Source of the DNA: Psychromonas sp. B3M02
GTDB taxonomy: Bacteria > Pseudomonadota > Gammaproteobacteria > Enterobacterales > Psychromonadaceae
NCBI RefSeq assembly: GCF_003318165.1
Contig: NZ_QOCB01000093.1
Span: 1 to 48,797, forward strand
DNA length: 48,797 nt
Direction: 5' to 3'
Shown here: one piece after another, positions 3,618 to 34,969 of the stretch
Numbering within the stretch: the stretch's first letter is position 1
How the letters are laid out: every line of letters starts with the position of its first letter
Position numbers and translations under genes: made by a program
The notes under the pieces: model-generated
Told to the model about the DNA's origin: nothing
What the model saw: the letters and a program-made list of their open reading frames with translations, nothing else
Database searches by the model: none

Positions 3618-4460
3618 TTACGGGTTTCTTGAATATTGACTAAAGTCTGGTTTACGTTTCTCGTTAAAGGCGTTTCTACCTTCTTGCCCTTCTTCACTCA
3701 TGTAGAAAAGCATTGTCGCATTGCCCGCTAACTCTTGTAGGCCTGCCTGACCATCACAGTCTGCATTCAAGGCAGCTTTTAGGCAACGTAATGCCATTGG
3801 ACTATTTTGTAATATTTCACGGCACCATTTCACTGTTTCTTTTTCTAAATCCACAAGAGGAACGACGGTATTGACTAATCCCATGTCAACGGCTTCTTGT
3901 GCATCATACATACGGCAGAGGAACCAAATCTCTCGTGCTTTTTTCTGCCCTACAATGCGCGCCATGTAACTTGCACCCCAACCACCATCGAAAGAACCGA
4001 CTTTTGGACCAGTTTGACCAAATTGAGCGTTATTCGCAGCAATCGTTAAGTCACACATCATGTGTAATACATGCCCTCCACCTACTGCATAACCAGCTAC
4101 CATGGCGATTACAGGTTTAGGGCAAGTACGAATTTGACGTTGGAAATCTAATACATTGAGGTGATGACCGCCGGTGTCATCTTTATAACCTGAATCTCCA
4201 CGGACACTTTGATCACCACCTGAGCAGAAAGCTAAATTGCCTTCGCCAGTCAGAATAATCACACCAATCTCAGCGTCATAACGAGCATCGTGCAAGGCTT
4301 GCATCATTTCGTTAACGGTTTGTGGCCTAAATGCATTACGTACTTGTGGGCGATTGATGGTGATTTTAGCTATGCCTTCAGCCTTGTGATAATAGATATC
4401 TTCAAAAGTTAACGCGCTCGGTTGCCATTGTATTGCGGAATAATGTGTTGATTCAGTCAT
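3618..4460 (-). CDS. menB: 1,4-dihydroxy-2-naphthoyl-CoA synthase
   Basis: A crotonase-fold enzyme that closes the second ring of menaquinone by converting O-succinylbenzoyl-CoA to DHNA-CoA. The sequence is very close to E. coli MenB, including [12 protein letters not shown], the CSGGDQ oxyanion-hole segment, [15 protein letters not shown] with the conserved active-site aspartate, and the C-terminal [12 protein letters not shown] start at the ATG at 4460 (280 aa): a GGAG lies 5 bases upstream and overlaps the alternative GTG at 4466, which is therefore unlikely to be used. It is the last gene of menF-menD-menH-menB; menC and menE, which follow menB in E. coli, are not here. Confidence 0.96.
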
Positions 4461-9366: not shown

Positions 9367-9400
9367 AAACACTGTTTTAAATAACAGTGTTTTGGTTTTT
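9367..9400 (+). terminator. Intrinsic terminator after menA
   Basis: A 10-bp stem AAACACTGTT/AACAGTGTTT (9367-9376 with 9383-9392) is followed by GG and an eight-T run. Confidence 0.8.
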
Positions 9401-32537: not shown

Positions 32538-32557
32538 CACTGTAAATTATTACAGTG
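32538..32557. promoter_or_regulatory. LexA (SOS) box upstream of uvrA
   Basis: CACTGTAAATTATTACAGTG is a symmetric site with the exact CTGT-N8-ACAG core (32540-32555). It lies 70-90 bases before uvrA, as expected for an SOS-controlled uvrA promoter. Confidence 0.85.
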
Positions 32558-32697: not shown

Positions 32698-33030
32698 TCA
32701 CGATTCGGCAAAAACAATCACTGCATTTTTACCACCATCATTCATGCCATTATCAACGTAACTATAAGCGTCGTCTGGTAATAAGGTGAAGGTTTCACCT
32801 GTTTCTGATGTTGCTTGGTAAATAAATTGGAAACCCTCTCGCTCTTCCATTGAGATATTCTCAGCTACTTTGAATTTACCATTTTTGAATTTTTTAAATT
32901 CAATAGGTTGCCATTCGTTATGCTCTGATAATAAGTTAATGCTAGTCGCGTTATTAGCCATCTCTTTACTGATTTCAAAGGTGACTTTTACAACGGGTTT
33001 ATTTTTCAAGAACTGTTTTTTAATGCTCAT
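32698..33030 (-). CDS. Small CBM48/isoamylase-N-like domain protein
   Basis: A 110-aa protein consisting of one immunoglobulin-like early-set domain, as in the glycogen-binding module of AMPK beta and branching enzymes: KVTFEISKEMANNATSINLL, SEHNEWQPIEFKKFKNGKFK and FQFIYQATSETGETFTLLPD, then DDAYSYVDNG. No catalytic domain is attached. Stand-alone proteins of this kind are common in marine gammaproteobacteria without a known function; carbohydrate or glycogen binding is an inference. It has a strong AGGAG before the ATG and follows mutH by 81 bases on the same strand. Confidence 0.75.
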   Translation of the reverse strand: MSIKKQFLKNKPVVKVTFEISKEMANNATSINLLSEHNEWQPIEFKKFKNGKFKVAENISMEEREGFQFIYQATSETGETFTLLPDDAYSYVDNGMNDGGKNAVIVFAES

Positions 33031-33111: not shown

Positions 33112-33783
33112 TTAATTTAAATGAAATTGTTGATTAATAATATCCTGAGTGAAGGCTTTTTTAAGGTAAAAACCACGAGGTCTGACTTTAATTAATTCAC
33201 CTTCTTCTCCATAAGCATCTGTTACTACTTGGCCATTAGCCGCTTTAGGGCGAAGTTGTATGACTTGCCCATCCCGGGCACTGATCTGCTCGATCTTTCC
33301 GAGTGCGATCTTCTCCATTATCTCATCCCAATCTTGTTGCATTAACTGTTCTTGTTGGCGTGAGGCTGTCCATAAAAAACCATTACCAACAATACGTTCT
33401 GCTAATGGGATTTTTCGCTCGCCTTGTACGGGTAACCACAATACCTTGCTGAGTTTGTTGCGGATATTGCTGTTTTCCCAAGTCAGGTGAGTAGTATTTA
33501 AAATAGGGGTGCTACACACAAAGGTGGTTTCGAGTACTTTACCATTGCTATCAATAGGGATAGTTTTTAATTCAATGCCTAGGTGTTTAAAATCTTGTTC
33601 CGGTTTACTGCCTGCCGATGCACCTAAGTGCCACTCAATGAGTTGTCCAACCCAGCCTTTATTTTTACGTAAGTTTTCTGGTGTGTTAATACCCGCAATA
33701 TCTGCTAATTCTGATAAAGAGTAGCCAGCAATGGCTTCACAATAACTTAATAACTGAGACTCTGATTGAGGTGTAGACTGCAT
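33112..33783 (-). CDS. mutH: DNA mismatch repair endonuclease MutH
   Basis: A 223-aa endonuclease that nicks the unmethylated strand at hemimethylated GATC sites when activated by MutL. The catalytic D...ExK motif is DFKHLGIELKT (about residues 63-73), and the N-terminal KGWVGQLIEWHLGA and later RPRGFYLKKAF (mutual with Sau3AI-like nucleases) are in place. Its presence predicts Dam methylation and methyl-directed mismatch repair. In E. coli, mutH also faces rppH across an intergenic region that holds the DnaA-reactivating site DARS2. Confidence 0.97.
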   Translation of the reverse strand: MQSTPQSESQLLSYCEAIAGYSLSELADIAGINTPENLRKNKGWVGQLIEWHLGASAGSKPEQDFKHLGIELKTIPIDSNGKVLETTFVCSTPILNTTHLTWENSNIRNKLSKVLWLPVQGERKIPLAERIVGNGFLWTASRQQEQLMQQDWDEIMEKIALGKIEQISARDGQVIQLRPKAANGQVVTDAYGEEGELIKVRPRGFYLKKAFTQDIINQQFHLN

Positions 33784-33881
33784 AGTAGCTCGCTTTAAAG
33801 ACTAAAAAAGATTAACGCGTTTATTGTACGTGTTTTTTTATTGTTGGGTTATTCATAGTTTTAAAATGAACTTACACAGAG

Positions 33882-33904
33882 TTATGCACATTTTTAGTGG
33901 ATAA
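33882..33904. promoter_or_regulatory. DnaA-box pair, module 1
   Basis: TTATGCACA (33882-33890, matching TTATNCACA) is followed by TTTTT and AGTGGATAA (33896-33904), whose complement TTATCCACT differs from the consensus box at the last base only. The two boxes face each other. Confidence 0.65.
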
Positions 33905-34211
33905 CTGAATAGATCGAAAGATCTTCATTTAGGCTCTATTATTTTTCTTTCAATTTCATAAAAATCTATTTTATATGCTTATTTTTCAAACAAAAAAGAG
34001 GCTTTTTAGGGCTGGTGTTTGTTTTTTGTACAACCAAGATATTCACATTCAATTGTGAATGAAACTTACTGGATCTAATTACAGTGATCATGGGTTAGTA
34101 TTTGGGATATTTATTTAACATGCTGTTTTTTAATGTAATAATCGTTATTCAAATAAATATATAAAGATCTTGCGGTTTGTTGTAATTCTTGATCCTTTTA
34201 TTTGTATTTAA

Positions 34212-34246
34212 TTGTACACAAAGTTATGCACAGATTTAGTGGATAC
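34212..34246. promoter_or_regulatory. DnaA-box cluster, module 2
   Basis: TTGTACACA (34212-34220, one mismatch), then TTATGCACA (34224-34232, consensus), then after 5 bases AGTGGATAC (34238-34246, inverted, two mismatches). The spacing of the last two boxes is identical to module 1. Confidence 0.6.
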
Positions 34247-34435
34247 ATTAATATTATTCATTTTTAGTAAACGTGACCTAGGTACTATCGTTTAACCTTT
34301 TTATAGTTTATGAGTTTGATGGTTAGGGGTTTCTGTGAAAGAATGCAACTATAATTATAATTTCATCTATTTTGTTTTGTCGTTGATTCACTTGTGTATA
34401 AATAAGAATAGATCTTTACCTGAGAAAGTTTTTTA

Positions 34436-34969
34436 ATGATTGATGCTGACGGTTACCGTTCTAATGTAGGTATCATCATTTGTAATAAAAATGGTCAAGT
34501 TTTATGGGCTAAACGCTTCGGTCAACATTCATGGCAATTTCCACAAGGTGGAATAAAAGAGGGCGAAACCCCTGAAAAAGCGATGTATCGAGAATTATAT
34601 GAAGAAGTTGGCTTAAAACCTGAGCATGTAAAAGTAGTGGCGAGCAGTCGTCAGTGGCTGCGCTATAAACTTCCTAAGCGTTTAGTGCGTTGGGAATCTC
34701 CCGCACCTATTTGTATTGGTCAAAAACAACGCTGGTTTTTATTACAATTGATTGCAAAAGAAGAGCAAATTGGATTTGATACTTGCGGACACCCTGAATT
34801 TGATGATTGGCGATGGGTTACTTACTGGTATCCAGTGCGTCAAGTAGTATCATTTAAACGTGATGTGTATAGAAGAGCATTGACTGAGTTTGCCCATGCT
34901 GCATTTTCTCTAATGCATAGAACGGATAAAAAACGAAATAAACGACCTCGCCGAGGTTCTTACAAATAA
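34436..34969 (+). CDS. rppH: RNA pyrophosphohydrolase
   Basis: A 177-aa Nudix hydrolase that removes pyrophosphate from 5'-triphosphorylated RNA and starts RNase E-dependent mRNA decay. The Nudix box covers residues 38-60 ([20 protein letters not shown] then VGL) with R52, E53, E56 and E57. The N-terminal [17 protein letters not shown] and [10 protein letters not shown] are RppH-specific. The basic tail ([13 protein letters not shown]) may aid RNA binding. It precedes ptsP by 32 bases, the same order as in E. coli. Confidence 0.97.

Follow-up and report, generated by a model that had tools for sequence, protein, structure and literature searches.

A putative DARS2 orthologue with two triple-box cores in the mutH-rppH interval of Psychromonas

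DARS2 is an Escherichia coli element, situated beside mutH, that converts ADP-DnaA to ATP-DnaA. The DNA analysed here (the window) is a stretch of 48,797 nucleotides from Psychromonas sp. B3M02 (contig NZ_QOCB01000093.1). Its positions 33784-34435, flanked by mutH and rppH as identified from open reading frames (ORFs) and Pfam matches, contain two complete DnaA-box cores of the DARS2 type (Table 1), and the interval appears to be a DARS2 orthologue carrying two cores. Good support for this assignment, made from sequence, comes from the shared synteny, the geometry and orientation of the cores, an IHF-type site at a fixed position, and a counterpart of DARS1 at uvrB. The twin-core layout recurs in several related groups and is present in a weakened form in E. 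coli. An initial annotation of the window had proposed the same identity, which the present results uphold. It also pointed to conservation of the position far outside the enterics; this holds as well but is not new, because Vibrio cholerae and Shewanella denitrificans already have published DARS2 homologues, which keep position and core outside the Enterobacteriaceae (PMC8682772, legend to Fig. 8). PMC4245941 likewise refers, in this connection, to gamma-proteobacteria related to E. coli.

Architecture of the interval

Each core contains a consensus box, TTATGCACA (33882-33890 and 34224-34232), with an inverted partner at exactly 5 bp and a third box 3 bp to the left. Thus, both modules are complete triple-box units with the geometry 9-3-9-5-9, 35 bp long, and the E. 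coli arrangement of a three-box core with two opposed boxes occurs twice, with three summed mismatches per copy. The opposed pair is better in the distal core (zero and one mismatches versus zero and two), while the proximal core is the one whose position corresponds to the E. coli DARS2 core. A repeat search of the interval finds a single direct-repeat family, consisting of two 39-nt copies that are 85% identical and 342 bp apart.

The initial annotation had recognized the two modules, each with a consensus box and its inverted partner, and the coordinates agree; all seven GATC sites, which could permit Dam/SeqA control, are likewise confirmed. Other details are revised. The start-to-start distance between the modules is 342 bp rather than 340. 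An extra box had been assigned to the second module, where it is indeed present, but the distal module also has a third box, ACTTACACA (33870-33878, two mismatches), that was overlooked. The 20-bp inverted repeat between the modules (34041-34060) exists, and consists of two facing DnaA-like boxes 6 bp apart. The genus conserves this pair, except that the left box differs between species at its free fifth base. Two further boxes, at 33849-33857 and 34393-34401, are conserved and were not in the earlier list. In 17 of 22 Psychromonas regions, TGTGNATAA (at most one mismatch) is found 158 bp from the proximal core, at -158; compared with E. coli DnaA box V, it is not a full consensus.

Table 1. 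Features of the mutH-rppH interval and its flanks (offsets are from the proximal core; counts are of Psychromonas regions)
Feature	Position	Strand	Remarks
mutH, left neighbour	33112..33783	-	ORF; Pfam MutH 2.8e-35
DnaA-like box TTATTCATA next to distal core	33849..33857	+	similar boxes here in most aligned congeners
Distal (mutH-side) DARS-type core	33870..33904	+	ACTTACACA - 3 bp - TTATGCACA - 5 bp - inverted TTATCCACT
Fis-like site, one mismatch	33977..33991		-235; 18/22 with at most 1 mismatch, 10 exact; weak consensus
Fis-like site, one mismatch	34017..34031		-195; 20/22 with at most 1 mismatch, 11 exact; weak consensus
Central inverted pair of DnaA-like boxes	34039..34062		ATATTCACA - 6 bp - TGTGAATGA; 20/22 at -173, 2/22 at -171
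CTG-N10-CAG palindrome, LexA-operator-like	34069..34084		putative function
IHF-type site AAACAGCATGTTA, one mismatch	34116..34128	-	-96
Island TATAAAGATCTTG, second IHF-like match, one mismatch	34160..34172	+	-52; 11/22, 2 distinct sequences only
Proximal (rppH-side) DARS-type core	34212..34246	+	TTGTACACA - 3 bp - TTATGCACA - 5 bp - inverted GTATCCACT
Consensus box TTATACACA near rppH	34393..34401	-	kept in the window's clade
rppH, right neighbour, then ptsP	34436..34969	+	ORF; Pfam NUDIX 2.5e-24
GATC sites, seven in 652 bp	33912, 33920, 34072, 34086, 34166, 34191, 34411		

A box density no higher than in other intergenic regions of the genome had been named at the outset as one finding that would speak against a DARS2-like locus. 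The interval holds nine DnaA boxes with at most one mismatch, versus 0.94 per 652-bp segment of the contig, and just two of 963 sliding segments of this length reach nine, both of them overlapping the interval. Seven GATC sites are reached by 4 of the 963 segments (mean 2.0). Across the whole window, the frequency of single DnaA boxes is not above chance; thus, the signal lies in the local arrangement. The 29-bp signature CACA-N3-TTATNCACA-N6-GTGGATA has exactly three copies in the 3.86-Mb genome, two of them here and one upstream of uvrB, and the reversed signature, used as a control, does not occur in that genome even at three mismatches.

Some 530 bp separate the third copy from uvrB, upstream of which it has the same gene-relative orientation as E. 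coli DARS1 (3662-3696 of region L037). DARS1 also has a triple-box core, and the window genome carries its counterpart; DARS1 differs from the locus studied here in having a single core and another gene neighbourhood. A DARS1-type sequence is found in 20 of 24 genomes of the genus, the position relative to uvrB having been examined in the window genome (G000); a reversed control for this search, which used a looser pattern and two mismatches, gives two matches in the 24 genomes. The four genomes that have no such sequence are G001, G004, G013, and G017, three of which are less than 90% complete.

Comparison with E. coli DARS2

The E. coli DARS2 core, identified via the deletion primers in PMC4585315 and the double-box table of the DnaA chromatin immunoprecipitation (ChIP-seq) study PMC11317965, is a unit at 2969135-2969169 (NC_000913.3). 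It shares with the proximal core of the window the neighbouring genes, the 9-3-9-5-9 geometry, the gene-relative orientation, and a similar distance to rppH (157 bp in E. coli, 189 bp in the window), as well as an IHF-type site about 90 bp away on the same strand. In contrast, E. coli has one good core and a degenerate distal module where the window has two complete cores, and the central box V of E. coli is a full consensus where the window has a weaker inverted pair.

For calibration, 11 E. coli stretches spanning 16 DnaA-bound regions of the PMC11317965 table were scored; the table positions were taken as NC_000913.3 and fit as such, for example at oriC, yet its footnote says NC_000913.2. 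The best three-box unit has two summed mismatches at DARS1, three at the DARS2 proximal core, and five at the DARS2 distal module. Elsewhere the sums are six at polA and datA; seven at nrdA, purH, and nrdD; eight at oriC/mioC; nine at rne and dnaA/dnaN; and ten at rpoH. Since five or fewer mismatches occur among these stretches solely at DARS1 and DARS2, the full three-box unit is a signature of DARS rather than of DnaA sites in general, although the gap between the weak E. coli distal module and the best non-DARS site is narrow. The mismatch limits used for the survey below were set once the E. coli and window sequences had been inspected.

The E. coli distal module, at 2969451-2969485, reads TCTTACACC-ATG-TTATCCACA-GAAAG-inverted TTATCCCAG, and its third box has three mismatches. 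DnaA enrichment by ChIP is 213-fold at this distal double box and 199-fold at a central peak, versus 78-fold at the canonical core; at oriC it is 218- and 174-fold (PMC11317965). In addition, E. coli DARS2 activity is lowered when its IHF sites are shifted by 5-10 bp (PMC4245941).

The E. coli ORF ygdT (2831-2977 of region L001) overlaps the distal module. Coding for ygdT was considered as the reason for conservation of the module and rejected: only 6 of the 14 enteric sequences have the ATG, and the frame is broken in most of them, at varying places. Thus, ygdT may not be a gene.

Distribution and spacing of the second core

DNA upstream of mutH was collected across the genus and many of the order's families, together with a set of named loci. 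A mutH match was found in 154 of 159 genomes searched, and regions were fetched from 79 of these genomes and from genome G026. A divergent rppH defines the 96 regions that were counted: 29 of 31 loci of the first set (L023 and L028 have no divergent rppH within the locus) and 67 of the 80 fetched. The other 13 fetched regions and four named ones (Proteus, two Providencia, and Xenorhabdus) have no divergent rppH and were not counted. Counts under loose limits cover 84 regions, 12 regions shorter than 380 bp, none of which carries a module, having been left out. Groups labelled f3, f5, and so on are referred to by these labels.

The conservation of boxes and spacing in relatives, which the initial annotation had proposed as a check, is evident. 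At least one strict module is present in 75 of the 96 regions and two or more in 35; with loose limits, the numbers are 76 and 58 of 84. Shuffled regions give a strict module in 0 of 1540 (1 of 2910 in an earlier run), a loose single module in 13 of 1540, and a loose double in 0 of 1540. Among the 80 named loci, which overlap the other set in several identical strains, a divergent rppH is found in 76, with at least one loose module in 68 of these 76 and two or more in 32. When box spacings are compared on a grid of 97 regions, some without rppH, the peak is at 3/5 (77 regions). The next cells, 1/5 and 5/5 (46 each), may reflect the first box being read in a register shifted by two bases. On the opposite strand, 3/5 is occupied in 12 of 97 regions, each time overlapping a forward module whose opposed pair is read backwards; other cells are occupied on this strand too, with 28 of 97 at 1/5. 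No strict module was found in f3 (three regions), f8 (one), f14 (two), or f17 (one), and no module even loosely in the named Idiomarina (three), Bowmanella (two), Pseudidiomarina, Glaciecola, and Salinimonas; some, but not all, of the intervals in these groups and genera are short.

The initial annotation held a duplicated module to be unusual. This view has to be given up: two or more loose modules are present in 20 of 22 Psychromonas regions, 12 of 12 Aeromonas, 15 of 20 enterics, and 3 of 11 Photobacterium, in Zobellella and Aliagarivorans, and in all or part of f6, f10, f12, f15, f16, f19, and f24. Of the two Aeromonas cores, the distal is the better, and the third box of the proximal core has three mismatches in 11 of 12 regions; because one core is weak, no Aeromonas region (0/12) has two strict modules. 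Recent duplication as the origin of the pair is not supported. Distal modules of different groups are about as similar to each other (identity 0.68) as a distal module is to its own proximal partner (0.66), a small margin that argues solely against a recent copy, and the arrangement recurs in other families.

The offset between the two cores is nearly fixed within most groups. It is 316 bp in enterics (15 pairs in 20 regions), 324-326 in Photobacterium, 333-338 in f24, 334-336 in f6 (one pair at 298), 337-338 in Aeromonas, 340-342 in Psychromonas (once 332), 354 in f16, and 355 in f12. For the 20 Psychromonas pairs, the offset is 341±2 bp, while the distances to the flanking genes vary by ±17 and ±92 bp. 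With the exception of f10, all groups tested show more variation in the distance on the mutH side than in the offset; the distance on the rppH side is widely variable in Psychromonas, but in Aeromonas, f12, and f6 it varies little more than the offset does. The DNA between the cores is 43-65% identical on average. A near-constant offset despite such divergence suggests selection on length, as expected of one nucleoprotein complex. The spacing analysis used preset offset ranges drawn from an earlier, range-free listing of pairs, which also contains pairs at 105 and 211 (f18), 168-171 (f10), 266 (f5), 40-334 (f15), 298 (f6), and, in f16, 2-53 and 405-407. That the two cores keep a common helical phase across families was considered and is not supported (Rayleigh-type p of about 0.36-0.40).

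A second, mutH-side core as a general feature of DARS2 was not found in the available portions of the literature, where no search was aimed at it. Likewise, the part of the literature covered yielded no account of DARS2 in Aeromonas, of DARS in Psychromonas, or of DnaA reactivation in Pseudomonas.

IHF, Fis, and LexA-like sites

Of the 22 Psychromonas regions, 19, representing 14 distinct sequences, have an IHF-type match with at most one mismatch on the minus strand at -96, and two more have it at -95; L018 has none. By comparison, none of three decoy patterns exceeds 7 of 22 regions and two distinct sequences. Thus, judged by sequence match, an IHF-type site occupies a fixed place beside the core, as in DARS2. 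Among 23 Vibrio and Aliivibrio regions, 10 have the site at -96 and 3 at -97; among 11 Photobacterium regions, 4 have it at -97 and 2 at -98; in E. coli it is at -87. IHF and Fis sites had both been suggested as something to look for in relatives. The IHF part is borne out at -96 in Psychromonas; the Fis-like sites are conserved within the genus, and the window interval contains no exact Fis consensus. The genome has Fis and IHF-alpha genes that score above the family cut-off.

LexA binds CTG-N10-CAG. A palindrome of this form is present in 21 of 22 Psychromonas regions, at -143 (19) or -141 (2). It is also present in enterics, at -262 in 17 and at -260 in 1 of 20 regions (the E. coli copy is at 2917-2932 of region L001), and in 9 of 11 Photobacterium regions at -269 to -271; it is rare in Vibrio and Aliivibrio (1/23) and in Aeromonas (1/12). 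The decoy GTC-N10-GAC is found at none of the offsets scanned in the five groups. Some match is found in 17 of 55 regions from other families; these are mostly scattered and show the background level. Three of the four f12 regions have the palindrome at one place. Because the place differs between lineages, homology of the LexA-like sites is uncertain. No literature tying LexA to the mutH-rppH DARS2 locus was recognised.

The triple-box signature in Gammaproteobacteria

The signature, with at most two mismatches, is found in 242 of 281 genomes of Gammaproteobacteria, four of them from the order of the window; the reversed control gives one match. An opposed gap of 6 bp instead of 5 is found in just 17 of the 281. 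Among the matches listed, most genomes have one to four, some of which represent one palindromic pair counted twice. Twenty sites picked from 11 genomes were inspected, and three of them lie 36-98 bp upstream of priA (one PriA was identified by Pfam, and two cluster with it by blastp). The flanks of the 20 sites contain no dnaA, dnaN, mnmG, mutH, or rppH that blastp could detect among ORFs 90 aa or longer, and the sole weak match to uvrB is a priA ORF. An identity as oriC was rejected for these modules, given the lack of DnaA, DnaN, and MnmG by blastp at the 20 sites; RpmH falls below the ORF limit. The signature provides a set of candidate sites for DnaA reactivation in bacteria where none was found described.

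A model for twin-core DARS2 and its alternatives

The mutH-rppH interval is very probably the DARS2 of Psychromonas, a noncoding platform where ADP-DnaA on opposed boxes would swap its ADP for ATP. DnaA is predicted to bind both cores, and IHF, probably with Fis, would bend the DNA between them to place both cores in one complex. ADP-DnaA molecules, bound face to face on the opposed boxes, would exchange ADP for ATP and depart ready for the start of replication. Both Psychromonas cores may be able to reactivate DnaA, while the distal core of E. coli may have decayed to a strong DnaA-binding site.

Several observations weigh against parts of this picture. In Vibrio and Aliivibrio the proximal core stands alone in 22 of the 23 regions, a loose distal match being present in one, and 2 of 22 Psychromonas regions (L020 and L021) have no scored distal module. 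The offset is not constant in f10 (301-339), f15, or f19 (315 and 347). Just 2 of the 20 enteric regions have an IHF match at the E. coli offset of -87. In Aeromonas a match near -96 is found in 1 of 12 (at -98), the best being 5 of 12 at -82 on the other strand, all of one sequence. No correspondence could be established between the Psychromonas Fis-like sites (-195 and -235) and FBS2-3 of E. coli, and the DiaA-like match in the genome is below its family cut-off (237 versus 276 bits). For the E. coli distal pair, PMC11317965 gives a spacing of 2 bp (CTTACACCA-tg-TTATCCACA), one base off the 3-bp register.

It is possible, if somewhat doubtful, that the proximal core alone reactivates DnaA, and that the distal core is a loading or feedback site at which assembly of ATP-DnaA shuts the element off, as E. 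coli box V does. This agrees with the negative role of box V (PMC8682772), with the finding that boxes IV-VI are dispensable for plasmid-driven overinitiation, itself a point against a functional second core (PMC4245941), and with the strongest ChIP signals lying at the centre and distal end of the E. coli element rather than at its core (PMC11317965). The constant place of the IHF-type site with respect to the proximal core also favours this alternative, but given the fixed inter-core offset the same is true of the distal core. Against the alternative, the distal core has the better opposed pair and the full geometry in the window, and is the better core in Aeromonas, where it is the proximal third box that is poor.

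Ordinary operators are an improbable explanation. DnaA boxes could serve DnaA-controlled promoters of mutH and rppH, the distal core being about 90 bp from the mutH start codon, and several E. coli genes are under DnaA control via double boxes (PMC11317965). However, no three-box unit within five mismatches is found at E. coli nrdA, polA, purH, rpoH, nrdD, dnaA, mioC, or rne, promoters predicted in the interval (three) do not exceed the number expected from shuffles (4.6), and in Psychromonas the core spacing is conserved when the distance to the genes is not. A titrating or datA-like role, in which DnaA is stored or inactivated at the locus, is a shade less probable again. The activity of datA is opposite to that of DARS2. 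It too is an intergenic cluster of DnaA boxes controlling DnaA, a likeness that fits the high box density of the interval, and it also binds DnaA strongly (213-fold; PMC11317965). Yet datA has no good opposed third box at 5 bp, its best three-box reading having four mismatches in that box and six overall, and it lies at glyVXY-queG rather than at mutH. The window locus has neither that location nor the lack of a DARS-type core, and the same genome has a DARS1-type core at uvrB.

A second core at near-fixed spacing, which several families retain and to which DnaA binds strongly in E. coli, suggests that something is missing from the accepted picture of DARS2. Tentatively, DARS2 may ancestrally have been a two-core machine of near-fixed length, with family-specific spacing and an IHF/Fis centre joining the cores in one complex, of which E. 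coli would retain a reduced form that has been treated in studies as the complete element; an internal LexA-type operator might tie recharging to DNA damage, and near-universal triple-box cores in Gammaproteobacteria might make DnaA recharging class-wide. The timely rise of ATP-DnaA for initiation is known mainly from one organism.

Neighbouring features of the window

On the far side of mutH, a 110-aa ORF adjoins the gene at 32698-33030 and has no Pfam match at an E value of 1e-5. Perfect CTGT-N8-ACAG boxes are present at 9372-9387 and at 32540-32555; the latter is upstream of uvrA and resembles the uvrA SOS box.
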